64,000 nt of DNA, from contig NZ_JABRVQ010000001.1 in the NCBI RefSeq assembly GCF_013248965.1, forward strand, positions 248,001 through 312,000, read 5' to 3'. The notes beneath the pieces are model-generated. The model saw only the letters and a list, made by a program, of their open reading frames with translations. It was not told the origin of the DNA and did no database searches. Both the position numbers and the translations under genes were made by a program. Below, piece after piece: positions 33,094 through 62,944 of the stretch (its first letter is position 1; every line of letters begins with the position of its first letter). This stretch comes from Psychrobacter okhotskensis. GTDB lineage: Bacteria; Pseudomonadota; Gammaproteobacteria; Pseudomonadales; Moraxellaceae.

Positions 33094-35133
33094 TTAAATG
33101 AGCGGCGTCTGCAAGCGTGTACGATTTGGCGACAGGCGCGCAAGCATCGCTGTCGATAAGGGTGGAAACGACCCTAACATCATATCTGCCAAGGCCTCAG
33201 CGCATATGGGTGCCAGTGCATAACCCTTAGCACCCATCGCACTCATAAGCCACATCCGTTTGCTGCGGGCTAACTGTCCAACGATTGGATGATAATCAGG
33301 TGTTTGAGTGCGGATGCCTGCTCGTCCTTGCCACAAACTGATATCTGTTGGAATAATCGATTTCATCTCGGGAATGGCAGTCACCAGCTTATCGCGGCTA
33401 ATCTGATGCTCTTCATTGCGGACATCCGTATCTGTATCATTGCGTACAAAGCTCGCCCCCAATAATAAATGCGGTGCACCCGTTATTACCTTATTTAAAT
33501 CATCGTCACCAGTTTGCGCGATAAATGAGGCGCAGTAACCGCTATATTTAAGCGGTATTTTGGGTAGCTTAGCGTACTGCTCAGCGGTTGGCACAAACCA
33601 CGAGAGCTGACCGCGAATCTTACGGCAATCAAAAATACGCTTGTCTAGCTTATGACTGTCATAAGCGGCGCAAATAACGACGTTATCAGCGCTAATAGAG
33701 AGTAAACCCTTATCCTGGTTACTGCCCTCAATACAGACACTACCCTCCATCTCACTAATATTCGTAACATCCAACTGCTGAAAGTGGATGAGCGGATGCG
33801 TCAGTATAGTGTTTTTTAACGCCTGCGGATTCACCAAGCCAGATTGAGGTAAGTAGAGATTTTCTAATAAATTTTGTGCTTTTAAGCCACTAACGTTTTG
33901 CGCCTGTTCGCAGGATAGTGTGTTTGCCATGTCGTCAGGATAATCAGCGATTTGCTCTGTACCGATATTGGCTTTGATTAATAAATCAAGCGCGCCAGTT
34001 GCCTCAAGTATCGGTGCTATGCCTTCTTTCTCAGCTCTTTTATTAAGCAAGCGATAGAGCCGGTTGCTGTAAAGATAGCCTATGCTATGCAGATGCTCGT
34101 CGACATGATGAAGCGGTGTCATCTTAGGTGCAAGCAGAGCACGCGGATTGCCTGAGGCGCCTGCCAAAGGTGCTGATTTGTCTAGTAAGCTGACTTGAAT
34201 GCCGCGATTGGCCAGCGCCCAAGCCGTTAGCAGGCCAGAGACGCCTGCACCAATGACGATGGTATGGCTCTGCTCGCTAGGTAGCGCAGCATTACCATTT
34301 ATACTATGGTTATCATCTGCGAGCTTAGGATCACTCATGACTGCCGTTAGCATTTCGCGTTTACGGCCAAAGCCCTTTACTTTTTTAATCTGAAAGCCGC
34401 ACTCTTGCAATGCACGTTTGACGATACCGGCACAGCTATAGGTAGCGGCGGTAGTCATTGGTCGTGATAAACGCTGCATTTGTGCAAAGATAGCGTCAGC
34501 CCATAAGCTGCTATTGCAAGAAGGGGCAAAGCCGTCTAAAAACCAAGCATCGATGTAGGGCGTAGGCTTAAGGGATGTATCTACTGCTAATTTGCCCAAG
34601 CTATCGGCCGCATCGCCAAGCCATATATCAACGGTCAGATTATCCTCAAAAAACTTCAAACGATGACAGCCCGCGATAAGGGGTGGGTATGCCGTTAGTA
34701 GTGGCTTGATGAATTCGGTAAGCTCAGGTGCGCGCTGCCCCCACAAGATGAGTATCTGCGTTAAATCTGCAAGGGGAATAGGATATTTTTCTGTCGTTAT
34801 AAAATGCAGGCGAGCAGTGGCTAATTGTGGCTGCTTATCACGCAGCTGTCGCCATAGTTGCCAAGTCGCTAAAAGATTCAATCCTGTCCCAAAGCCTAAC
34901 TCAGCGATCGTAAAGCATTGCTTTGGGGCAAGTTTTGCGAGGCGCGCGGGCAGTTGGTTGTGCGCTAAAAACACGTGGCGCGACTCTGCTAGACCATCGG
35001 CGTGTGAGAAGTAGACATCACCAAACTCGCCTGATACCGGCACTCTATTGCCCGTATCATCCGTTTGCCAATCGATGTTGGCAGGCGTAATAATATTGGG
35101 CTGTTCAGCATTTTTAATTTGAGCGTTAGACAT
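33094..35133 (-). CDS. mnmC: Bifunctional tRNA mnm5s2U34 methyltransferase/oxidoreductase MnmC
   Basis: MnmC completes 5-methylaminomethyl-2-thiouridine at the wobble base: the C-terminal FAD domain removes the carboxymethyl group and the N-terminal SAM domain methylates. The methyltransferase half shows [25 protein letters not shown] and the [13 protein letters not shown] motif. The oxidase half opens with [21 protein letters not shown] and [12 protein letters not shown], and ends with [19 protein letters not shown] and [15 protein letters not shown] choose the ATG at 35133 (679 residues). The longer frame to 35190 would begin inside a dispersed repeat copy and adds no conserved residues. 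Confidence 0.93.
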
Positions 35134-35175
35134 GGCAAAGTTCTTAGGAGCGTTTTTAGCTATAGTCAGTGAGGA

Positions 35176-35278
35176 ATAATATCGACACATCAGGCACTGC
35201 TGATATCCATTTTTCTTGCTTGCTGTGCCCGCGTAGACAGAGGCGACAAAAAATTGATATCAGCAATACCATCGCGTT
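35176..35278. repeat. Dispersed dyad repeat, copy 1 (between mnmC and a coiled-coil protein gene)
   Basis: The arms are TGCTGATATC (35198-35207) then ATTTTT, and AAAAAT then GATATCAGCA (35256-35265). They flank a core containing CTTGCTTGCTGTGCC and GACAGAGGC. The whole 100-bp stretch aligns with 44257-44355, and its core with 41333-41410. It is non-coding. Confidence 0.8.
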
Positions 35279-35467
35279 TTAGAATAGTTTGACTATATGT
35301 CAACCATAATATCACGACAGCATCCACCTCACTGACCATACTCATGTATAGCTTGCACTCGGTTTCATTGTATTGATATTATTTTGGATTGACGATATAT
35401 GGGAAGCATCAGAAAATTTACGTCCATCAAGTGCTGTTAAGTGCCGTTAAGTATAGATATGCAGCTA

Positions 35468-35923
35468 TTACCAGCGTTCGCGGCGCACAAATACTAACCA
35501 AGACACAAAAATACCCACCAATAAGCTGATCAATACCGTGAACGCGCCATATAAAAACAGCTGACCTTTACTCTCATAAACCAACACATTGGCTTGGGTC
35601 TGCAGGTCATTGACCTGTCGTTGTAGTTGGGCATTGCGACTGAGCAGCTCTTGATTGGCAGCGTTTAGCGCCTTGTTGGAAGGTTGCAACTGTGCTGCCA
35701 AGGTATTATTTATATCAAGGCTTGAATTTGGCGTCATTGCTGGCGCGGTAGCCGCCTGTTCATCTAACGGCGCTGTCGCTAGCGGATCCGTCGTAGCAGG
35801 ATTCACATTTGTGACTGTTGGCGCAGCGTGCGCTGTCATTGCTATCATAGCCGTGATTAGCATGACGCTAGCAAGACTGCGTTGATAGTAGCGGTTTTTT
35901 GACCAAGATATGCACTGATTCAC
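35468..35923 (-). CDS. Exported coiled-coil protein with C-terminal membrane anchor
   Basis: The 151-residue protein has a signal-like hydrophobic segment (LASVMLITAMIAMTAHAAP), an Ala/Thr/Pro/Asn-rich spacer, a predicted coiled coil (LNAANQELLSRNAQLQRQVNDLQTQANVL) and a C-terminal membrane helix (GAFTVLISLLVGIFVSWLVFV) followed by RRERW. The coil-helix-basic tail resembles the end of the YgiM/TIGR04211 family, but the SH3 domain is missing. Its start codon overlaps the stop region of the upstream YciI gene by four bases, so the two are coupled. Confidence 0.65.
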   Translation of the reverse strand: MNQCISWSKNRYYQRSLASVMLITAMIAMTAHAAPTVTNVNPATTDPLATAPLDEQAATAPAMTPNSSLDINNTLAAQLQPSNKALNAANQELLSRNAQLQRQVNDLQTQANVLVYESKGQLFLYGAFTVLISLLVGIFVSWLVFVRRERW

Positions 35924-36249
35924 GACTTGACTGCTTTGTCTGAGGCACTATCATCTGGCTTTGGCAAGGTATGGATAAAGGGTCTGATATCGACGTGACT
36001 GTATACACCGTCGCGCAGGTAGGGCTCAGCGTTTGCCCATGTTTGGGCTGCCTCGAGTGAGTCAAAGTCGGCGATGATTAAGCTGCCTGACATCTCGCTT
36101 TTACCATGCTCAATAGGGGTCGGACCTGCGATAATTAACCGTTGTTCGCGTCCTAATGCTTGCAGACGCTCGACGTGCTCAGCACGAGTGATCTGCCGCT
36201 GTGCGCTGCTATTAGCAACGTCATGACCAATAATGGCGAATAAAGACAT
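35920..36249 (-). CDS. YciI-like protein
   Basis: The 109-residue protein begins MSLFAIIGHDVANSSAQRQI and shows the dimeric alpha+beta (ferredoxin-like) YciI pattern: R-rich helix ERLQALGREQRLIIAGPTPIE, then GSLIIADFDSLEAAQTWANAEPYLRDGVYSHVDIRPF. The conserved GHD, with His and Asp, is the presumed active-site pair of the family. Biochemical role is unknown in most members. A yciB homologue follows upstream, an association also seen in E. coli (yciI near yciABC). Confidence 0.88.
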   Translation of the reverse strand: MSLFAIIGHDVANSSAQRQITRAEHVERLQALGREQRLIIAGPTPIEHGKSEMSGSLIIADFDSLEAAQTWANAEPYLRDGVYSHVDIRPFIHTLPKPDDSASDKAVKS

Positions 36250-36426
36250 AATAATTCCTTAATAGACAGTAATAATAAACCGTATCATCATTAATGATTA
36301 ATCATTATCAATATTAGAATTTAGTAGTAATCAGTTATTATAAGATAATAAACTGGCATACCGAATGGTGAGTGTTGGACTTGTTCTTATGTTTACTTAT
36401 CTAGCGACTATTTACCTAACCAGTGC

Positions 36427-36978
36427 TTATTTAGCCGCTTTATCGGTCAGCGCTGGATTGATATGTTTTTTTAATACCGCAAACTGCGCGACCACGAACA
36501 CCAACATAATGGGTATCCAGCCGTAAGTTTTGAAGTTAATCCAAGCCTCATCTGACATAGTAAATGCCGTGATATAATGTAGTACACCCATCATGGCAAA
36601 AAACAGCGCCCAAGCAACGGTTAGCTTCTTCCAACCACTGAGCGTAAGGGTAAAGACCTCTTTCATGGCCAACTGCATCAACGGCTTATTGATAGCGGCA
36701 CTGACAAATAACGTCAAGGCAAAGATGCCGTTAATAATCGGTGACTTCCAGCGCAAGTAAATGTCATCGCGTAGCAACAGCGTGCCGCCACAGAATACGA
36801 TGGTTAATAATAAAACCACCCATTGCTGCTTATCAAATTTACCTTTTTGGCGAATAAAGTGAATAGTATAGACAACAATCGTGGCAATCAGTAAAGCGCC
36901 TGCTGCCGCCAAAATACCTTGGGTACGGGCGACAATAAAAAAAGCAATTAAGGGAATAAAGTCTAATAGGGCTTTCAT
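36427..36978 (-). CDS. yciB: Inner membrane-spanning protein YciB (septation protein A family)
   Basis: The protein (183 residues from MKALLDFIPLIAFFIVARTQ) has about five to six membrane segments and family hallmarks including the FDKQQWVVLLLTIVFCGGTLLLRDDIYLRWKSPIINGIFALTLF region (KxP motif), KPLMQ and KKLTVAWALFFAMMGVLH. YciB is implicated in envelope integrity and intracellular septation. An alternative upstream ATG at 36999 adds seven residues; the family begins at MK(A/F)LLDF, so I use 36978. It lies next to a PHP phosphoesterase gene, divergently, like E. coli yciB and rnm. Confidence 0.93.
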   Translation of the reverse strand: MKALLDFIPLIAFFIVARTQGILAAAGALLIATIVVYTIHFIRQKGKFDKQQWVVLLLTIVFCGGTLLLRDDIYLRWKSPIINGIFALTLFVSAAINKPLMQLAMKEVFTLTLSGWKKLTVAWALFFAMMGVLHYITAFTMSDEAWINFKTYGWIPIMLVFVVAQFAVLKKHINPALTDKAAK

Positions 36979-37149
36979 AGCGTGTGGCATGTCCAACAAA
37001 ACGTATAGGGTAGTTTACACGTCTACTGCACCAAAAAAAAGCAATCAACACGATAATCGTTTTATATGACCTGCCTTTGCCATTTTCTTGCATTTTATTG
37101 ATACCATACTCATGATCATTACCATATTCAAAACCTTAAGGCTATTTTT

Positions 37150-38031
37150 ATGAAAATCGATTTACATTGTCACAGTACTTGCTCTGATGGCACCTATGCG
37201 CCAACGGAAGTGGTGCAGCGTGCCCATGCGGCTGGTGTCGATGTATTGGCATTGACAGACCACGATACCCTAGCCGGCATCGATGAGGCGAGGGCAACCG
37301 CCACGGGCTGCGGCATGACGCTTATTAACGGCGTTGAAATCAGCTGCGAGCATACGCTGAGCGGTGGTTATGGCAAAAATAAATCTACCAACAAGATCAT
37401 TCATGTGCTGGGATTGGATTTTACCGATTTTGATAAAATGCACGCAACATTGCAGCAATTACAAGACAGTCGTGCGACTCGTGGTCAGCGTATCGCCGAA
37501 AAGCTCAGTACGCTGCTAGAGATTGATTTTGATACGCTATGGCAAGCGATACTGGATAAAGCTGGCGGCAATCCACAAGCGGTTGGACGCGCGCATATTG
37601 GTCAAGTGCTGTTTGAGCGCGGTGACGTAAAGACGGTACAAAAAGCCTTTGATAAGTATTTGGCGGACAATAAACCTGCTTATGTGGCAATCGAGGCATT
37701 GACGATGCAGCATGGGATTGAGCTGATCCATGCCTGCGGCGGCAAAGCAGTCCTAGCGCACCCAACGCGCTATCAGCTCTCGGCGACACGAGTACGTAAG
37801 CTTATCGAAGAGTTCGCTCAGTTGGGCGGCGATGCTTGTGAGCTGCCTGCCAATAGTGAGCCGATTAGTACTCGTAGAATGGTGGATCGCAGCATAGCCG
37901 AGCACCAGCTCGTTACCTCGATAGGGAGTGACTTCCATGGTAGTAATATGCCGTGGCGACGTATAGGTGATGTACCAGTATTGCACCCTGAACAGCAAGG
38001 CATTTGGCAGTCTTTTGCGACTTTGTCTTAA
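37150..38031 (+). CDS. PHP-domain phosphoesterase (RNase AM / YciV/TrpH-like)
   Basis: The 293-residue protein starts MKIDLHCHSTCSDGTYAP. Metal ligands are visible as His6/His8, then LTDHDT at residues 36-40, NGVEISCEH, a conserved HIGQVLFERG, VLAHPTRY and SDFHG near the end. In E. coli this family (Rnm/YciV) trims 5' ends of rRNA and degrades short oligonucleotides (3',5'-bisphosphate release). By homology I expect a cytoplasmic Mn-dependent nuclease/phosphatase. It sits divergent from yciB. Confidence 0.9.
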   Translation: MKIDLHCHSTCSDGTYAPTEVVQRAHAAGVDVLALTDHDTLAGIDEARATATGCGMTLINGVEISCEHTLSGGYGKNKSTNKIIHVLGLDFTDFDKMHATLQQLQDSRATRGQRIAEKLSTLLEIDFDTLWQAILDKAGGNPQAVGRAHIGQVLFERGDVKTVQKAFDKYLADNKPAYVAIEALTMQHGIELIHACGGKAVLAHPTRYQLSATRVRKLIEEFAQLGGDACELPANSEPISTRRMVDRSIAEHQLVTSIGSDFHGSNMPWRRIGDVPVLHPEQQGIWQSFATLS

Positions 38032-38107
38032 TCTTAAAACCGTTATAAATAATCGATAAGTATGATTCAACTACTTGATCAACAAATGATTATTTTTTAA
38101 ACTGAAC

Positions 38108-38133
38108 CCTCATTTTATGAGGATATACCCTAG
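38108..38133. repeat. Degenerate MITE end
   Basis: ATGAGGATATACCCTAG (38117-38133) matches the MITE right end ATGAGGACACGCCCTAG at 2834-2850 except for a few transitions. It includes a CCTCAT/ATGAGG mini-hairpin. No second end is found nearby. Confidence 0.4.
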
Positions 38134-38272
38134 TATATTAGCCAGTACAGCAACGCTATAAATAAAGTAAAAATTATCAGACTAAACGCGCTATTCAGAG
38201 TAAGCTTAAGGCAAAGAGAACTGTTTTTTAATTTGAGCTTACTAACTTTATACTACCTGCGGTAGCCCAATT

Positions 38273-39727
38273 ATGGCTGTAAAGATATCTCATCTAGGCT
38301 ATAAAAGACTCTCCCGAGTTATTTTTGAATGGCAGGCGGCCGATAGGGCGTCGCTGCTGGCCTTATTTGTGGTGATAGAAGTCTCCACCCATTGGCTGTG
38401 GTGCTTGATGGTTTGGTGCTTTCGAGATGCGCTCGATGATTATGTCAATATCCATCTGTTATACCCATTATGGTTGGGAGTGACAGTAATGGGGTTGTTT
38501 TCTTGGTGGCTGGTCGGCTACTTATCTCGTACTAGAAACAACTGTAAAGACTTGGATAAATGGCAAATTATGTTAATTGTGCCTTATACCCTTTACATTG
38601 CCGTGGTCATCGTGATGATAGGCTACAGCAGTTTGTTTGCGGGAGTATCGTTGGTTGGCGGTGCCATGTTAGGCATGGTGCTGATCAAGCGGCGTTATGC
38701 GTGGCGGGTGTTTTTGCTGCAGGTTTTACTGATTTTGTTGGCTATTGTAGCGCCTTATTTCGGTATCGATCTGCCCAATTTGCGCCAGTTAACAGTGATC
38801 TACCCCATTCTTGATAGCCCAAGTTATCTAACTTATAACGAAGTCATGGCGGTCGAGAACATGGTTGCCGCTGCCATCTTTAAAAATACAGCGCTAGGCT
38901 GGGACAGTGTTAGTGCCTTACAACAATCGTCAACGCTCTTTTGGCGCTCAACTCATGTGTATTTAGCCCTGCCCAAAGCCGTTTTTATCGTATATATGTT
39001 TCGTACCCTGTTATTGATATTGGATGATAGTAAAAACGAGATCTTGTTACATGCCAATCAAGACGAGTTAACCAAGCTCAAAAACCGCCGTTATGGCCTG
39101 ACACAAATGCAGCAGGCGCTCATGACAGTGGACGAGGATCAAGATTTTAGTGTCATTTTATTGGATTTAGATTGGTTTAAAGAGGTCAATGACAATTATG
39201 GACACGATATCGGTGATCAGGTTTTGTTTGAGGTGGCGCAGACGTTATTACAGTCTTTGACAGAGGAGGCGATCGTCAGTCGCTATGGTGGTGAGGAGTT
39301 TTTGATTGTGCTGCCAGATACCAAGCACGATAGCGCTATGCTCATTGCTAAGCAGCTACGGCAGGATATAGCGCAGCATATTATAAAGGTCGATGACAGC
39401 GTCAGTTTTAGGGTAACGGCCAGTTTAGGACTGTATACGTTGACTTATGCTGAGAAAATGTGCCTCAAACAAAAATATGAGAGTATAGCGCTCAAGGATA
39501 GGGCGACGCTGCACTCAAAACCACAGACAGCTAAGTCACACAGCAGTAACCGAATGGCAAAACAAATCTCAAAGGCGCAATTGCCGAACGATATTTGCCA
39601 GCGTTTGATCCGGGTGGCAGACAAAGCCTTATATGAAGCTAAGGATCGAGGTCGTGATCAAGTAGTGAGCGCCAACAAAATGCTCGCCGCAGAAAAGAAG
39701 AATGTTGAGCCGCTTTATGGTACGTAG
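38273..39727 (+). CDS. Membrane diguanylate cyclase (GGDEF)
   Basis: The 484-residue protein has an N-terminal membrane sensor of about six helices (residues 25-265) and a GGDEF domain. ANQDELTKLKNRRYG opens the domain, LDWFKEVNDNYGHDIGD carries metal/substrate residues, and SRYGGEEF places GGEEF at 339-343, so it should make c-di-GMP from GTP. The inhibitory I-site RxxD is absent (Thr and Ala at those positions). A roughly 50-residue basic/Ser-rich insertion separates SLGLYTL from the closing RLIRVADKALYEAKDRGRDQV. The membrane part resembles MASE-type sensors; the ligand is unknown. Confidence 0.9.
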   Translation: MAVKISHLGYKRLSRVIFEWQAADRASLLALFVVIEVSTHWLWCLMVWCFRDALDDYVNIHLLYPLWLGVTVMGLFSWWLVGYLSRTRNNCKDLDKWQIMLIVPYTLYIAVVIVMIGYSSLFAGVSLVGGAMLGMVLIKRRYAWRVFLLQVLLILLAIVAPYFGIDLPNLRQLTVIYPILDSPSYLTYNEVMAVENMVAAAIFKNTALGWDSVSALQQSSTLFWRSTHVYLALPKAVFIVYMFRTLLLILDDSKNEILLHANQDELTKLKNRRYGLTQMQQALMTVDEDQDFSVILLDLDWFKEVNDNYGHDIGDQVLFEVAQTLLQSLTEEAIVSRYGGEEFLIVLPDTKHDSAMLIAKQLRQDIAQHIIKVDDSVSFRVTASLGLYTLTYAEKMCLKQKYESIALKDRATLHSKPQTAKSHSSNRMAKQISKAQLPNDICQRLIRVADKALYEAKDRGRDQVVSANKMLAAEKKNVEPLYGT

Positions 39728-39895
39728 ATGAGTGCCAATTAAATGAAGGGTTCTTGAACGAATACCACCTATTAAGCAAATGCCACTGACCAAGTAAATG
39801 CCGCCTAAACGGCTATTCGATTGGCTAGCCGCTTATATGAAATTGACTATACTGTTTTTTGCGCCAAGTCGTTATTTTCGCTAAGTCGTTAACTA

Positions 39896-41125
39896 CTATG
39901 TACTTAGTTTCTGAACCAAACTCCCTAATACACTGGTGGCAAAGCTGCCAGTCGTCAATGTAAAGTTTAATACTAGCGTTTGCTCATCATTATTTTGCCA
40001 CCGCCAGCTCATCTCTTCAATTGGTAGACGCAGCGCTCGTCGTTGTGCTTTCACATCGCGCTTCTCTAATCCTATTGCCAGCTGTGTTAGTAAATCACTA
40101 TTCTGTACAACATCGTTTTCAATTTGAGCTGCTACGGCGCTGACTTTGTCATTAGCCATACCCCATAACACGCCAGTCGGATGAATATCACCGCTAGCAA
40201 CTCGCGCACGTAAAGTGTCGTCTATTGCTTCACTGGTAAATATCGAGCCTGAACCATCTAAGTTAAATACTTCACCTGCCAGCCCTGTATTCCAACTGAT
40301 ATCCCGTACCCGCGCTGCTAAGATTTCATTAAATATCAAGCTACGCGCAGCAGACAATTCCATGCTGTTTTGCTCGCGTGGTGATTTTTTACGTTTGCTC
40401 TTTTTTGGCTGCGGTCGGCTCTCTGGCGTTGGACGCGCAAACAATGCCAAGGCTTCTCGAATATTATTACCATTCCATCCAAAACGCTGCGGACCAAAGT
40501 AATTGGGTACGCCAGTTGTGCTGATATTTTGCAAATGCTGTTCTACAGACGATTTATCGTCATTTTCCAATTCAATATCTCTCAAGGTGATAATAAATTG
40601 ATTGGCCCTATGTGTACCGCGATTAAGCTTTTTATTGTGCCAGTGCTGAGCAAGGATAGTGACCGACTCGTTGTCGCTGATATCTACTGGTGCAAACTCA
40701 GACTCTGGCAATTGCTTTTTTGGTATCCGCAAGCTAAACCACTGCGTCGTTAGCGCATGACGGTCTTTGAGTCCTGAGTAACCGACATCACGTAAGGGAA
40801 TCTCTGCCCACTCTGACAGTAACTTCGCCAGATAAGCAGTATTTACCCCTGACTTCTCTATATGTAGCCATAGATGCTCACCCTCGCCTGTAAACTCTAA
40901 CGGCAATATTTCATTGACGACAAAATCTGTGTTATGGGTCTTGTAAGTCGCTTGTTTGAGAGGTGGCAAAGTCGGCTGCGGTAATTGCGCAGTATCCGTC
41001 GCTGCTTCGAGATCAAAACTGGTGATATCAAACTGTTCATTATTAGATGACTGACTGTTTAAGTCAGGTTCAGAAGTAGACGTAGCTGTCATTTCGTTGG
41101 GGTTATCTTGATCTTGAGAATTCAT
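39896..41125 (-). CDS. truD: tRNA pseudouridine synthase D
   Basis: TruD makes pseudouridine 13 in tRNA-Glu. The 409-residue protein shows FVVNEILPLEFTGEGEHLWLHI, the catalytic YSGLKDRHALTTQWFSL (Asp121), and the C-terminal NYFGPQRFGWNGNNI and GVLWGM segments. Compared with E. coli, where the catalytic Asp is at 80, about 40 acidic/Ser/Gln residues are added at the N-terminus. The start therefore may be internal, but no better start codon is seen. It is a single gene on the minus strand. Confidence 0.94.
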   Translation of the reverse strand: MNSQDQDNPNEMTATSTSEPDLNSQSSNNEQFDITSFDLEAATDTAQLPQPTLPPLKQATYKTHNTDFVVNEILPLEFTGEGEHLWLHIEKSGVNTAYLAKLLSEWAEIPLRDVGYSGLKDRHALTTQWFSLRIPKKQLPESEFAPVDISDNESVTILAQHWHNKKLNRGTHRANQFIITLRDIELENDDKSSVEQHLQNISTTGVPNYFGPQRFGWNGNNIREALALFARPTPESRPQPKKSKRKKSPREQNSMELSAARSLIFNEILAARVRDISWNTGLAGEVFNLDGSGSIFTSEAIDDTLRARVASGDIHPTGVLWGMANDKVSAVAAQIENDVVQNSDLLTQLAIGLEKRDVKAQRRALRLPIEEMSWRWQNNDEQTLVLNFTLTTGSFATSVLGSLVQKLST

Positions 41126-41332
41126 AAAGTCGTCTTGTATTTTGGTTATAAGTTTTAGGTTGAAAGAGTAGCTCTGTTCGTTAAAAAGCTAGTAAAGGTT
41201 AGGAGGTTACGTTTTGCAACGCAGCGAACATACAAATAAACAGCGTACGCTAACTGGGCTTGCTACTATCAATGAATCTGCTTTTTTTAATATATAGTTG
41301 ATAATAAATAAAATGGTTACATAACATTATTA

Positions 41333-41410
41333 TGCGTGACTGGTATAAATTTTTCTCGCTTGCTGTGCCTACGCCGACAGAGGCTTGGTAAAATTCATTC
41401 CAGTAACGCT
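41333..41410. repeat. Dispersed dyad repeat, copy 2 (between truD and the Rieske gene)
   Basis: The core CTCGCTTGCTGTGCC...GACAGAGGC matches copies 1 and 3. The arms here read GCG/ACTGG/AT/AATTTT on the left and AAAATT/AT/CCAGT/CGC on the right, different letters from the other copies but still complementary. The 378-bp gap has no other feature; a small minus-strand frame at 41250-41438 spans the repeat and is not a gene. Confidence 0.75.
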
Positions 41411-41504
41411 TGTTAGTCCGCAGTAAACCTATATTCATTAAAGTATATCGACTATCTCAAACACGTTTTATTCAGGAAGTAATTATAACTGTTAAGGATG
41501 ACCT

Positions 41505-43142
41505 ATGAGCCAAGTTAATAATAACCAAGCCGACAACAAAATCGCCGCCAAAAATCTAGTAACGATCAATAAATCTGACATTCCAAGTGGCGGTATGAAG
41601 TCATATAAACAAGATGACGATAGTATCATTTTAATTACCCGTGATGAGGATGAGTTTTTTGCCTTTGATGGCAAATGTCCTCATGTTGGCGCAGATCTAG
41701 GTGATGGCATGCGCTGTGGTAATCGAGTGGTCTGCCCGTGGCATCACGGCAGCTTTGACAGCCGCGATGGCACGCTATTAGAGCCAGTTGCTATGCGTGG
41801 ATTGACTCAATATGAGCTGACAGATGAGGGCGATAGCTTGACCGTCAATACTTCAGCAAAGATAGATAATAGTGTTGCTAATGATAAAATGACAGATACG
41901 CATACCATTATTGTTGGTGGCGGTGGCGCAGGCTTTATGACCGCCAATCAGTTGCGTCATACAGGTTATGGCGGCAAGATTACCTTAATCAGTAAAGATG
42001 ATACAGCCCCTTACAACCGTCCTTTATTATCCAAAGCATTTTTGGCAGGGCAACTAAGTGCAGATAAGTTATTGCTTGGCGGTAGCGATTGGGCAAGCAA
42101 CAATAATATTGAGCTACGCTTAAACCAGACCGTGAGCGAAGTATTGCCTAATGAGTGCACCATCGTCATAACCGACGAAAAAGGCAATAGTGAGCAGCAC
42201 ACAGCAGACTTCTTAGTCGTCGCGACAGGTGCTGAGCCTAAGATACCACCTTTTAAAGGCGCTGAGCTGGATGGTGTCTATACGCTACGCAGTATGGATG
42301 ATGCCAAAGACATCAAGGCCGCCAGTGATAATAAGCATGTGGTCATCGTTGGTACGGGTTTTATTGGGATGGAAGTGGCTTCCGCCTTGGCAGATGCGGG
42401 CACGACTGCCTCTATTACTATCGTTGGTCGCAGCCGCCGCGTCATGAGCAATATCGTCTCAGAAACAGTGAGTCATGCGCTCATCAAACTTCATGAAGAA
42501 AAAGGGGTGACTTTCGCATTTGGCGCGGGTGTTGATAAAATCACTGGAGAAGGTAGTAAAGTCAGCGGCGTAAAACTGTCAGATGGCAGTACGCTGGCAG
42601 CAGAGGTGGTCATTTTAGGTACAGGTGTCGCCCCACGTACCGAGCTATTAAATGAGGTAAACGCGCCAGATGGCGTGCAAGTGGATGAGCATCTACAACT
42701 GCGTGATGGCGTCTATGCGCTCGGTGATATTGCTAAAGCGACCAACCAAATGGGGCGTATGCGTATTGAGCATTGGCGGGTGGCGCTACAACACGGCATC
42801 GTGACCGCTGCCGCTATCTTAAATGAAGACAACGTCAACACGCTAGAGGAACGTATCCCTTTCTTTTGGACGGCACAATATGGCAAAAGCCTACGCTATA
42901 GCGGCCACGCTGCTACGCCAGATAACAACATTTTGTTTGGCTCGCCAGATACGCTAGATTATATTGAATATTACTTTGATGACGATGGGGAAGATACGCG
43001 TGCGAGTGCTGCTAGCACGTTAGGGCGTGATAAAGAGCTGGTCGCCTTTTCTGAGCTGCTGCGCCGTGGTCATGCGCCAACGCGCGCACAAATTAATGCA
43101 GGATTTAATCTCATTGACCAAGCGCAAGCATTATCACGCTAG
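41505..43142 (+). CDS. Rieske [2Fe-2S]-FAD pyridine nucleotide oxidoreductase (AIFM3-like)
   Basis: The 545-residue protein fuses a Rieske domain (residues about 16-110; ligands C58, H60, C77, H80 in CPH and CPWHH) to a FAD/NAD(P)H reductase. The latter has THTIIVGGGGAGFMTANQLR, YNRPLLSKAFLAG, VATGAEPKIP, the NAD-binding HVVIVGTGFIGMEVASALAD and YALGDIAKA. The arrangement is that of AIF-like/rubredoxin-type reductases with an N-terminal Rieske, so it may transfer electrons from NAD(P)H through FAD to a Rieske cluster. The true partner is unknown. Start: AAGGATGACCTATG. A terminator follows. Confidence 0.92.
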   Translation: MSQVNNNQADNKIAAKNLVTINKSDIPSGGMKSYKQDDDSIILITRDEDEFFAFDGKCPHVGADLGDGMRCGNRVVCPWHHGSFDSRDGTLLEPVAMRGLTQYELTDEGDSLTVNTSAKIDNSVANDKMTDTHTIIVGGGGAGFMTANQLRHTGYGGKITLISKDDTAPYNRPLLSKAFLAGQLSADKLLLGGSDWASNNNIELRLNQTVSEVLPNECTIVITDEKGNSEQHTADFLVVATGAEPKIPPFKGAELDGVYTLRSMDDAKDIKAASDNKHVVIVGTGFIGMEVASALADAGTTASITIVGRSRRVMSNIVSETVSHALIKLHEEKGVTFAFGAGVDKITGEGSKVSGVKLSDGSTLAAEVVILGTGVAPRTELLNEVNAPDGVQVDEHLQLRDGVYALGDIAKATNQMGRMRIEHWRVALQHGIVTAAAILNEDNVNTLEERIPFFWTAQYGKSLRYSGHAATPDNNILFGSPDTLDYIEYYFDDDGEDTRASAASTLGRDKELVAFSELLRRGHAPTRAQINAGFNLIDQAQALSR

Positions 43143-43169
43143 CATTTAGAGGGTTATAAGGTTTACTAT

Positions 43170-43202
43170 AAAGGCTGATCTATTAATTTAGGTCAGCCTT
43201 TT
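43170..43202 (+). terminator. Terminator after the Rieske gene
   Basis: AAAGGCTGA (43170-43178) pairs with TCAGCCTTT (43193-43201), with a 14-base loop and short T-run. Confidence 0.8.
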
Positions 43203-43250
43203 ATCATATAGCCTTTTATACTAAATAGACGGAAAAGGACAACCAGTTTC

Positions 43251-43907
43251 ATGAATAAAGAACAGATAAATAAAAATCACTTGAATAGAGAGTCCATATT
43301 TTTACGCCAAGCAGAAGCGGATGATATTGACGCACTCGAACAGTTACTAAACCGTTGCTACCGAGAGACGGAAGGCTGGACCAATGAAGCAGATTTGGTC
43401 GGTGGTATCCGTATTACTCAAGCTGAGCTGGCGAGCATCATCGCCAATCCAAAACACTATCTGTTCGTGTACCCAAAAACCATAACGGGCGAACGCGATG
43501 GAGAGGAGACTGGTGAGCTATTGGGTTGTATTGCGGTCGATATAAAAGTTAATGCTGATACAAATAAGAGTGACCTTAATAGCACTGACAGTAAGAATAA
43601 AGCGTATATCGGCATGTTTGCGGTACATCCAGAGCTGCAAGGGCAGGGCGTGGGTAATATAATTCTACAAGCGGCAGAGACTTTCGCAAGAAGACATTTG
43701 TCATCAAGTGATCAGCAAAATAATCAGCAGCCAAGTCGTCTGACCATGTCTATATTGAGCCATCGACCAGAGCTATTGGCTTATTATCAGCGCCGTGGCT
43801 ATCAGCTAAACGGTAATAAAATGCCGTTTCCAGACGATGGTAATAATGGCGAGCCCAAACGTCAGGACTTAGAGTTATTAGAACTGGAGAAAATTGTTAA
43901 CGCATAA
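43251..43907 (+). CDS. GNAT-family N-acetyltransferase
   Basis: The 218-residue protein begins with a polar leader, then FLRQAEADDIDALEQLLNRCYR, and holds the acetyl-CoA motif GMFAVHPELQGQGVGNIILQAAE. A low-complexity acidic/Ser/Asn insertion occurs between the core strands (DIKVNADTNKSDLNSTDSKNK), and a second Ser/Gln-rich loop (SSSDQQNNQQ) precedes LTMSILSHRPELLAYYQRRGYQ. The acceptor is not predictable. The ATG has AAAAGGA at good spacing. Confidence 0.88.
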   Translation: MNKEQINKNHLNRESIFLRQAEADDIDALEQLLNRCYRETEGWTNEADLVGGIRITQAELASIIANPKHYLFVYPKTITGERDGEETGELLGCIAVDIKVNADTNKSDLNSTDSKNKAYIGMFAVHPELQGQGVGNIILQAAETFARRHLSSSDQQNNQQPSRLTMSILSHRPELLAYYQRRGYQLNGNKMPFPDDGNNGEPKRQDLELLELEKIVNA

Positions 43908-43936
43908 AAGTGAGTTTTATCTACATCAAACTTGAG

Positions 43937-44149
43937 TTAACCCCAAAAATGCCCAAAGGTCATAAACAGCCCAATACTAAGCAAGATAAATGCCACGACA
44001 ATTAAGCGCTTAAACCAATTAAAAGCGGGCAAGCGTGTGGCATTGTCATCAGACATTAAGTAAGCAAACAGGCATAATAAGCTTGCTGCTAATGTCATAA
44101 TCCCTAAGCCTATGGGTAATATATAAAGGTAGATTTGCCACACAGCCAT
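43937..44149 (-). CDS. Small two-helix membrane protein, unknown function
   Basis: The 70-residue protein has hydrophobic segments at about residues 5-30 and 47-67, joined by a polar loop (SDDNATRLPAFNWFKR). Its length, hydrophobicity and position convergent with the acetyltransferase gene suggest a real but unrecognised gene. No clear ribosome site is seen; the call is moderate. Confidence 0.5.
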   Translation of the reverse strand: MAVWQIYLYILPIGLGIMTLAASLLCLFAYLMSDDNATRLPAFNWFKRLIVVAFILLSIGLFMTFGHFWG

Positions 44150-44256
44150 CTCGCAACTATTATTGATACTATCATCATAACAGCATCGATAATGGACTGT
44201 CTGTATGCGGCATACTTTAATCTTTTCATCTTATCGAAATGTATAATGAGTGAACA

Positions 44257-44355
44257 GTAATATCGATAAATCGTGCACTGCTCATATCAATTTTTCTTGC
44301 TTGCTGTGCCTGTACAGACAGAGGCTACAAGAAATCAATATCAGCAATAGCGTCG
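44257..44355. repeat. Dispersed dyad repeat, copy 3
   Basis: This copy contains TAATATCGATAAATCGTGCA, CTGCTCATATCAATTTTTC, the core CTTGCTTGCTGTGCC, GACAGAGGC and AATCAATATCAGCAATAGCG. It parallels copy 1 almost base for base. It ends a few bases before the MITE end at 44361-44405. Confidence 0.8.
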
Positions 44356-44360
44356 CATTT

Positions 44361-44405
44361 TTAGCCCATTTAGATGACTATCGATTGAATTGAAGACACG
44401 CCCTA
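44361..44405. repeat. MITE end, adjacent to dyad-repeat copy 3
   Basis: The 45 bases from TAGCCCATTTAGATGACTAT to GAAGACACGCCCTAG are the reverse complement of the left end at 2686-2729 with a few changes. Only one end is present within the 375-bp gap. Confidence 0.6.
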
Positions 44406-44465
44406 GGATATTTTGACTATAAAAACCACTTACGAATAAAATTGACTTTATTTTCTAAAATTAAG

Positions 44466-44494
44466 TTGGGTTTATAGAAAGGAATCTGTATAAT
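44466..44494 (+). promoter_or_regulatory. Sigma-70 promoter for the DUF4878-like lipoprotein gene
   Basis: TTGGGT (44466-44471), a 17-base spacer and a perfect TATAAT (44489-44494) lie 32 bases upstream of the ATG at 44526. Confidence 0.65.
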
Positions 44495-44525
44495 TAAGTA
44501 ACATTATAGATACATTGAGAACGAT

Positions 44526-44894
44526 ATGAAAAACCTAAAAAAACTCGCGCTGATACTACTTCTCACGCCATTATTCGCGGCTTGCTCTAGTGGTCCTTCT
44601 GAAAGCGATGTAGAGGCACTTATCCAAGCTCAGTATGATAAGGCCAACAGTATGATGGATGATGCTGTGGCAAATGCGGGCAATGATGAGATGGCAAAAG
44701 CCATGAGCGGCATGATGGAAGGGATGATGCCAACGCTTGAAAAAGTAGAAAACGTAAGCTGTGATACTACCGAAGGTGACAACACTTATTTGTGCACTGC
44801 TGACGTCACGCAAACGATTGGTGGTAAAAGCCGTACCGATAGTGGTACCTTTAAAGTTAATGATGTTAATGGCACTTGGGTATTGACTCAATAG
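44526..44894 (+). CDS. Small DUF4878-like lipoprotein
   Basis: The 122-residue protein has a lipoprotein signal (LILLLTPLFAAC, lipid Cys at about 20), a helical region (EALIQAQYDKANSMMDDAVA), a Met/Gly-rich stretch (KAMSGMMEGMMP) and a C-terminal beta region with two cysteines (ENVSCDTTEGDNTYLCTADV), likely a disulfide. The C-terminal GTFKVNDVNGTWVLTQ is typical of DUF4878/NTF2-like lipoproteins, where the end strand has GxW. Envelope location is secure; function unknown. Confidence 0.75.
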   Translation: MKNLKKLALILLLTPLFAACSSGPSESDVEALIQAQYDKANSMMDDAVANAGNDEMAKAMSGMMEGMMPTLEKVENVSCDTTEGDNTYLCTADVTQTIGGKSRTDSGTFKVNDVNGTWVLTQ

Positions 44895-50900: not shown

Positions 50901-51055
50901 GAGCCAATCCCGCTTTCCGCTTATATCTTGGTCGCCCACTAGAGCGGTGACTAATAGCCAGTAGCGTTCCTGTTGTCTCGATACCGCTCCTAGCTAAGTC
51001 ACCTCAATCTAGTGGTCAACCAAGGATAACCGCTACAATCGAGGCTAAACCGCTC
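50901..51055. repeat. Long imperfect inverted repeat (possible structured RNA or MITE)
   Basis: Core arms CCACTAGA (50936-50943) and GGTGACT (50946-50952) pair with AGTCACC (50997-51003) and TCTAGTGG (51008-51015). Outward, TTGGT and CTTATATCTTGG-like segments (about 50919-50935) pair with CCAAGGATAACCGC (about 51020-51034), and CCGCTTTCCGC with a distant ACCGC run. GC is higher than in the AT-rich genes that follow. No open frame is convincing. It lies just upstream of the accessory patch. Confidence 0.6.
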
Positions 51056-62385: not shown

Positions 62386-62944
62386 GCAGTTTTGGTATTT
62401 TCTCGTTAACATCAAAATAATGAGCAGTATGAAATGATAAACATTCAAGGGTTAATTTTATATATAGTCATTCCACTATAAAAGTATTACTGCGTTAACC
62501 TCGTTTGAAGTATTAAATATACATCTACACTCGGTTGCCTTGTACTACTTTTAAACTGAATCAACTATAGCCTCCAAGAGGTTTTTATTTATTAGTGTTG
62601 TCAGGGTACTGTTTACGAGATTTTTCTTTAGCAGGTTTTGGCACACAATAGGATTATTGTCGATCTTCTGTCTAATGCTATAGAAGATACATCATTGACT
62701 TAAGTTTGTTATTAATTATTTCTTATTATAGAGACGATTAATTTACTATTGTTATAACTACTGTTTTTGTTTATATTGTCTGTACTCATTAATGCCACGG
62801 CTAATACTGTTTTAATAAGTAAGAAACGGAATTGACTATTAAGTTTCGTATCATTACTTATTTATGAACTAGCAATCTTTAGTGCTTAGTAGATAAAATT
62901 ATATTTATTAATTTTATATCCCTTATCTTAAAGTTGAGTTTATT
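62386..62944. other. 560-bp AT-rich intergenic region before the H-NS-family gene
   Basis: No open frame is convincing. The sequence is strongly AT-rich with many A/T runs, the composition favoured by H-NS. I see no clear promoter or hairpin. Confidence 0.45.

Follow-up and report, generated by a model that had tools for sequence, protein, structure and literature searches.

A probable IS630-type MITE family with a constant core and variable complementary arms in Psychrobacter

The window analyzed here, a 64,000-nucleotide stretch of the Psychrobacter okhotskensis genome (contig NZ_JABRVQ010000001.1, positions 248,001 to 312,000), contains three copies of a dispersed element on the + strand, each built around a 27-bp core that is enclosed by an inverted repeat. 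Copy 1 (type A; 35161..35297, 137 bp, core match at 35218..35244) has the ends TATAGTCAGTG...TTTGACTATA and a hairpin with TGCTGATATC arms. Copy 2 (type B; 41293..41456, 164 bp, core match at 41358..41384) has the ends TATAGTTGATAATAAATAAAATGG...CGACTATC, the final terminal base having diverged, and ACTGGTATAAATTTTT hairpin arms. Copy 3 (type A; 44242..44421, core match at 44299..44325) has the ends TATAATGAGTG...TTTGACTATA, and its 180 bp include a second dispersed repeat of 44 bp (44362..44405, - strand), which is nested between TAG repeats in the right part of the element and occurs 18 times genome-wide when up to three mismatches are allowed. A sequence-only reading had proposed that the three copies share a core within an inverted repeat, and this is borne out by core searches. 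GCTTGCTGTGCC has three exact matches, at 35218, 41358 and 44299, every one on the + strand, and five matches at up to one mismatch against 0.39 expected from shuffling; the two-part core at up to three mismatches is found at the same three places against 0.03 expected. The same reading correctly observed that the arms differ and still pair, i.e. TGCTGATATC/GATATCAGCA in copy 1, the same with mismatches in copy 3 and ACTGGTATAAATTTTT...AAAATTCATTCCAGT in copy 2. The spans that it assigned to the copies (35176-35278, 41333-41410 and 44257-44355) are only the middle of longer elements, and its description of all three as intergenic is approximately right, as the longest reading of the ORF at 33094-35190 (-) begins within copy 1, with a later in-frame ATG available as an alternative start.

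Three copies within 9 kb is a true but understated count, since 73 core copies occur in the P. okhotskensis genome and none in a reversed control. At least one core copy is present in 66 of 105 Psychrobacter genomes, and the richest of these (G005) has 342. Only one of 194 other genomes of the same bacterial family is positive, with one single match carrying one mismatch. In plasmid searches the type A consensus matched one Acinetobacter baumannii plasmid partially, by the right 54 bp of the element, and the G005 consensus matched none. Within the searches made, the MITE family is found only in Psychrobacter. Replichore polarity in G005 was considered and rejected, the apparent + strand-only placement being a listing artefact; when both strands are read, the first 400 kb hold 39 copies on + and 34 on - in mixed order, and 1.2 Mb hold 94 and 79. 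No description of this MITE family was found in the open-licence literature at the level of titles and abstracts. RepRanger lists 2,260 REP and 1,017 RIT candidates in P. arcticus and, in the accessible portion of that report, does not name the MITE family (PMC12306157).

The elements share the ends TATAGT...ACTATA. The 7-base ends TATAGTC and GACTATA, at up to one mismatch, are present in 228 of 285 collected copies, with chance estimated to explain about one in ten end calls in a scanned stretch. Lengths, listed with the 57 copies without both ends left out, are mostly 138-146 bp, the commonest being 138 bp (111 copies) followed by 145-146 bp (43 copies). The elements are thus short, multi-copy and putatively non-coding with terminal inverted repeats, as IS630-derived MITEs are, and at their ends they resemble an autonomous IS630-family element of the same lineage. 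The transposase profile PF13358 has matches in all six Psychrobacter genomes tested, and at 8 of 12 such loci the match is spanned by an 890-916-bp element with TATAGTC ends; one of the eight is in P. okhotskensis itself and has two ORFs (L244:1415-2322). The IS and MITE ends are alike at 18 to 20 of 26 positions (IS TATAGTCAATCCATAATAAAATTGGTAC compared with MITE type B TATAGTCGATACTAAATAAAATGGATAC), and the likeness is good for types B and C and less good for type A. It is the outer ends, not the arms, that resemble IS ends, so the arms are not simply the flanks of one IS, a case that the sequence-only reading had named as fatal to an RNA. G005 has PF13358 transposase fragments only, and its mover is therefore gone, unrecognised or of another family. 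Insertion at TA with duplication is seen in the best readable cases. In L098 an element is nested at TA inside the arm of another and the sister copy in L125 has the empty sequence, and in L183 and L272 two elements share one TA and one relative is without the neighbouring element. Among 28 candidate filled/empty site pairs, 16 were aligned and 12 left unaligned, and most of the 16 junctions are too diverged for a TA duplication to be read.

Covariation between the arms, which the sequence-only reading had put forward as a test, is significant when measured with shuffles and slid registers in place of R-scape. Of the 285 copies, 12 with disrupted arms were dropped, and thinning of the remaining 273 to keep arm identity below 80% left 59; here 165 cells carry double changes against 63.9±5.9 in shuffles, and double changes are seen at 18 of 20 arm pairs. 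Across 138 copies in G005, 103 of 414 cells vary at the three stem pairs that are mismatched in the consensus, and 101 of these 103 now pair; at the 17 matched pairs 23 of 2346 cells vary, and 22 of the changes break pairing. Either arm serves as template for the correction. In four copies both members of one pair have changed, and in three of these four they pair; single-change intermediates are present in 8 of the 138. A small number of master copies probably passed on some of the corrected alleles, so that 101 of 103 counts copies and not events. Common variants at the edge of the stem are not all corrective, which counts against the template-switch reading: in a table of G005 stem pairs, made without the 31 of 173 copies outside the main ungapped subfamily, two pairs just beyond the counted range are broken in part of the copies, namely -25/+26 in 62 of 142 (C-G in the other 80) and -24/+25 in 13.

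Rearranged forms also occur. The core is inverted in two copies (L043 and, in G005, at about C1:1069020-1069157). Left ends without a good core (n = 31) comprise 7 short forms, 7 other internal deletions, 11 right-truncated copies and 6 full-length copies with an altered core; the 7 short forms are hairpin-less, which suggests that the hairpin is dispensable, and five share an unusual junction, with a base change in two of the five. In G005, however, only 2 of 152 are hairpin-less. Several copies were judged by eye to be chimeric (e.g. L103:5934, L118:394, L084:7436). Arm homogenisation and spacer inversion are presented as template-switch products in the available part of PMC8604942, and the pattern of arm correction in G005, together with the two inverted cores, fits replication template switching of this kind.

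The likely explanation is an IS630-type non-autonomous MITE family with arms rewritten by template switching, and the family, with its constant core and variable arms, would then be new among the IS630-MITEs. As judged from the sequences, an IS630-type transposase acting in trans would cut the element ends and insert the element at TA, for the most part in intergenic DNA. Within the element, the inverted repeat could form a hairpin in single-stranded DNA, at which a polymerase could swap template between the two arms and rewrite one arm as the complement of the other, leaving changes that appear compensatory. The template switch may sometimes flip the core, deletion across the hairpin would give the hairpin-less forms, and recombination between copies at the common core would give chimeras. 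An RNA hairpin, where one forms, would arise incidentally from read-through transcription. DNA copying errors at inverted repeats account for the matching arms more readily than a new RNA does.

Neutral decay does not predict so little variation in the core, and this counts against the best explanation. Core-based collections favour intact cores, and the comparison of variability was therefore begun from the element ends. Among copies found in this way, 7 of 3726 core site-copies vary against 39 of 6072 in the outer element in G005 (p = 0.001), and 21 of 441 against 69 of 567 in P. okhotskensis (p = 3e-5), i.e. core variability is 2.5-3.4-fold lower. The core is also near-invariant over the 59 copies with arms less than 80% identical, partly by construction as these were found by their cores. 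A less probable reading is that selection or homogenisation maintains the core in inserted copies as a functional module, irrespective of the arms and ends around it.

An RNA hairpin under selection, with arms pairing in the RNA and the core as the recognised loop, similar to the RNase III-cut transcripts of Correia/NEMIS, seems unlikely; any effect would be exerted in cis, in mRNAs containing an inserted element. The strong arm covariation and the low core variability are both in its favour. The 81-nt RNA folds have z scores (+/-) of -4.7/-6.4 for copy 1, -3.0/-4.0 for copy 2 and 0.0/-3.6 for copy 3, below -2.9 in five of six strand/copy tests, the + strand of copy 3 thus folding no better than shuffles. 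Mismatches at nearest-neighbour steps lean to would-be minus-strand G·U (103 vs 38), but mismatches other than G·U (274) exceed the 49 and 110 G·U on the two strands, and private changes in the paired arms show a strand asymmetry (18 vs 39) that is not clearly different from that of the outer control (54 vs 72). A structured regulatory RNA should show an orientation bias, whereas in 400 kb of G005 the 38 copies that lie between tandem ORF calls split into 20 with and 18 against transcription. The hairpin-less form recurs, and Rfam has no match in 35000-44600 up to E = 1. Elsewhere in the window, away from the elements, Rfam has one match. Compensatory changes are expected of a structured RNA, but DNA arm correction predicts them equally, and covariation in these arms does not establish an RNA. 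Of the two origins that the sequence-only reading had offered, the mobile palindrome family is upheld by the IS630-type ends and TA target, and selection on an RNA hairpin is not supported, since the arms are inverted repeats of a mobile DNA element and pairing-restoring variants, from either arm, are already abundant among near-identical recent copies.

It is likewise doubtful that the core is a protein-binding or other functional DNA site, e.g. an accessory site of the transposase or the site of a host architectural protein, with arms that drift. Such a site would account for the near-invariant core in the arm-diverse copies and its low variability in end-found copies. However, other cores are present in both-armed elements (L285, L286, L290, L298, L301, with a clear right end in L285 and L301), the core is inverted or deleted in some copies, the right arm in P. 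okhotskensis is as invariable (3.4%) as the core (4.8%), and a need in transposition gives no protection to a copy once inserted. REP/REPIN-type palindromes spread by RAYT (a single-strand transposase) would also be short, dispersed, numerous and mostly outside ORF calls, but are very improbable here as the repeat unit is the 138-bp element, which has conserved ends, inserts at TA and shares similar ends with a DDE-type IS.

Known systems share some of these features, as far as the accessible parts of the sources describe them. RUP, an IS630-Spn1-related MITE of pneumococcus, is a 107-bp intergenic element with a TA target and IS630-family-like ends; its host is of another phylum, and the portion available does not mention a constant core flanked by variable complementary arms (PMC2229807). 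Correia/NEMIS of Neisseria is a 107/155-bp MITE with TA at its termini and stem-loop transcripts, for which a shorter internal-deletion form and inversion are reported, the likeness being one of description and not of alignment (PMC2229807, PMC10969869). Experiments on Correia are reported to have revealed RNase III cleavage, promoters and an IHF site (PMC2229807, PMC10969869). MITEAba12 is also a small MITE of the Moraxellaceae, but it is 113 bp long with ends GGCTTTGTTGCA..., a 9-bp target duplication and ISAba12 as its proposed parent (PMC6382973).

This family provides hundreds of natural quasi-palindrome replicates in one genome, which make template-switch arm correction and spacer inversion measurable in evolution. 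It also calls for caution, as covariation, a standard signal in RNA discovery, need not signify RNA within mobile palindromes. Why the core varies so little is a puzzle open to testing. If the core is a module kept in inserted copies, a mobile element would have spread one conserved structured site, between arms that evolve freely yet remain complementary, up to hundreds-fold in single Psychrobacter genomes.

The core GCTTGCTGTGCC N6 GACAGAGGC occurs three times in the window, at 35218, 41358 and 44299, always on the + strand. At up to two mismatches, 73 copies (38 forward, 35 reverse) are found across the own-genome assembly of P. okhotskensis (3.38 Mb, 74 contigs; the window is 248001-312000 of contig C1), and a reversed control pattern has no match in the whole genome at the same tolerance. 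The flanks of all 73 copies show the core to be the middle of a longer element, which in most copies extends from a left TATAGT to a right ACTATA; some have one end missing or substituted. In the window these elements lie at 35161-35297 (copy 1), 41293-41456 (copy 2) and 44242-44421 (copy 3). Copy 3 contains a second, 44-bp dispersed repeat, TAGGGCGTGTCTTCAATTCA...ATGGGCTA, at 44362-44405 on the minus strand between TAG repeats, and this repeat has 18 own-genome copies (up to three mismatches).

Its length, its ends, the TA target and its kinship to an IS make the element a MITE of IS630 type. The IS630-family transposase model PF13358 has matches in all six genomes tested. Twelve transposase loci were fetched, and in eight of them the match lies within an element of 890-916 bp with TATAGTC ends; one of these elements, L244:1415-2322, belongs to the own genome and has ORFs of 113 and 186 aa. 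The end of the IS, TATAGTCAATCCATAATAAAATTGGTAC, clearly resembles that of the MITE, TATAGTCGATACTAAATAAAATGGATAC; type A ends, those of window copies 1 and 3, are less similar to the IS ends. G005, the Psychrobacter genome richest in copies (342, nearly identical), has only three fragmentary IS630-type transposase matches, with open frames of 61-87 aa. Of 28 candidate filled/empty pairs, 16 were aligned, most of them with a junction too diverged to read. Insertion at TA is readable at locus L098, where the element is nested in another's arm and the empty sequence is given by a sister copy (L125), and where one TA is common to two elements and the neighbour is absent from a relative (L183; L272). 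At L155 a MITE lies within a repeat of the 44-bp type; other copies of that repeat have no MITE there, and a few bases differ at the junction. Of the 73 copies in the first 400 kb of G005, all but one fall outside ORF calls (at least 100 aa, without annotation). Tandem, convergent and divergent gaps there hold 38, 18 and 16 copies in totals of 43.6, 11.9 and 24.0 kb, so convergent gaps are somewhat enriched.

The core is matched in 66 of 105 genomes of the genus, and a family-wide search outside it gave a single one-mismatch hit in one of 194 genomes, which looks like chance. A further search matched at least 111 stretches, and all 80 listed are from Psychrobacter. No earlier description of the family was found in the titles and abstract openings of the open-licence papers searched. 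Another IS630-type MITE-like element, 107 bp long and without the hairpin core (TATAGTCATTCCACTATAAAAG...TCAACTATA), lies at 62463-62569 on the + strand and has an apparent relative, reversed, in L307. Another repeat, TTAGGGCGTGTTGAACATTC...GAATGTTCAACACGCCCTAA, recurs next to MITE copies in L262, L014 and own-genome flanks. Flavo-1 is an RNA family of Bacteroidetes. A match to its Rfam model (RF01705) at 50902-51050 on the minus strand scores 47.7 against a gathering threshold of 42, and spans 149 bases for a model of 76 positions. As far as the parts of the literature consulted describe them, RUP is likewise an IS630-type MITE and Correia/NEMIS has a similar build (PMC2229807, PMC10969869); MITEAba12, also from Moraxellaceae, is distinct from the present family (PMC6382973).

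Window copies 1 and 3 form type A (TATAGTCAGTGAAAAGTAATATC..., arms TGCTGATATC/GATATCAGCA) and copy 2 forms type B (TATAGTCGATACTAAATAAAATGG..., arms ACTGGTATAAATTTTT/AAAATTCATTCCAGT). Altogether 285 copies were collected (the 73 of the own genome, another 73 in those 400 kb of G005 and 139 from fetched stretches), of which 228 have both ends in a one-mismatch test, most commonly at lengths of 138 bp (111) and 145-146 bp (43). Thinning at below 70% arm identity leaves 31 arm types. Some copies, e.g. L118, L159 and L053, have near-perfect palindromic arms with letters of their own, and some elements appear by eye to be half-and-half chimeras of the types. Expanded microsatellite-like runs (TACAATACAATA..., GCTTGCTTGCTTGC...) occur inside some G005 copies, around C1 323905 and 331726.

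The sequence-only reading had taken the arm changes as compensatory and argued for selection on a hairpin, or a mobile palindrome family. The covariation itself is real. Thinning to below 80% arm identity left 59 copies; when these are read in the register -k to +(k+1), Watson-Crick cells number 806 against 655±11 in shuffles and double-change cells 152 against 70±7. That register pairs 65% of cells and slid registers 29-41%, the +2 slid register also being slightly above all its shuffles (505 vs 464±11). In a MAFFT alignment of the same copies, 18 of 20 arm pairs have both-sided changes, with 165 double-change cells against 63.9±5.9 and a covariation score of 0.247 against 0.111±0.006 (slid registers 0.035-0.077). 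The core helix hardly varies and is uninformative on covariation.

How the arms change can be followed in a recent G005 subfamily of 138 copies, each 138 bp, found by their ends in 1.2 Mb. Three stem pairs are mismatched in the subfamily consensus; of their 414 cells 103 are variant, and 101 of the variant cells pair. The 17 pairs from -4 to -23 do match in the consensus, and of their 2346 cells 23 are variant, 22 with pairing lost. In 21 copies two positions of the right arm have come to match the left arm, the left arm has come to match the right at one position in 18 and at two in 14, and single-step intermediates occur in eight; these are counts of copies, not events, because some alleles must come from master copies. 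On these sequences, both arms are subject to rewriting. Not all common variants are corrective, since the two pairs just beyond are broken in some copies (-24/+25 in 13 and -25/+26 in 62 of 142). In two copies, L043 and one at about C1:1069020-1069157 of G005, the core is inverted between the arms. Arm homogenisation in inverted repeats and spacer inversion are described, in the part of the source consulted, as products of polymerase template switching (PMC8604942), and switching between the arms would yield homogenised arms with occasional core inversion.

The core varies little. In G005 copies found by their ends, rare changes number 7 in its 3726 site-copies, compared with 39 in the 6072 of the outer parts (p = 0.001), with the arms intermediate; in 21 own-genome copies found likewise the figures are 21/441 against 69/567 (p = 3e-5), the right arm (3.4%) varying as little as the core (4.8%), with 7.6% for the left arm. 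Once an element has inserted its termini change freely, so this protection is not explained by a need in transposition. It may come from homogenisation between copies, from lower mutation or from a putative function of the core; elements with other cores exist.

If an RNA were under selection, G·U should be tolerated on one of the strands. Steps between nearest neighbours do lean to minus-strand G·U (103 vs 38), but private changes in paired arms (18 vs 39) are not clearly distinct from the outer control (54 vs 72) or core (12 vs 16), and those at unpaired arm positions lean the opposite way (18 vs 8). Orientation relative to transcription is unbiased in 400 kb of G005 (20 same, 18 opposite). 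In the own genome, 31 of 65 left ends have no good core: seven are shortened to about 66-68 bp and lack the hairpin, seven have other internal deletions, 11 are right-truncated and six are full length with an altered core. Five of the seven short forms share one unusual junction, two of these with a base change, and the right end is damaged in three of the seven. The hairpin is absent from only 2 of 152 two-ended copies in G005. Recurrence of the hairpin-less form implies that the short form can spread without a hairpin. Template switching between the arms would account for the arm covariation of the family, with no RNA needed.
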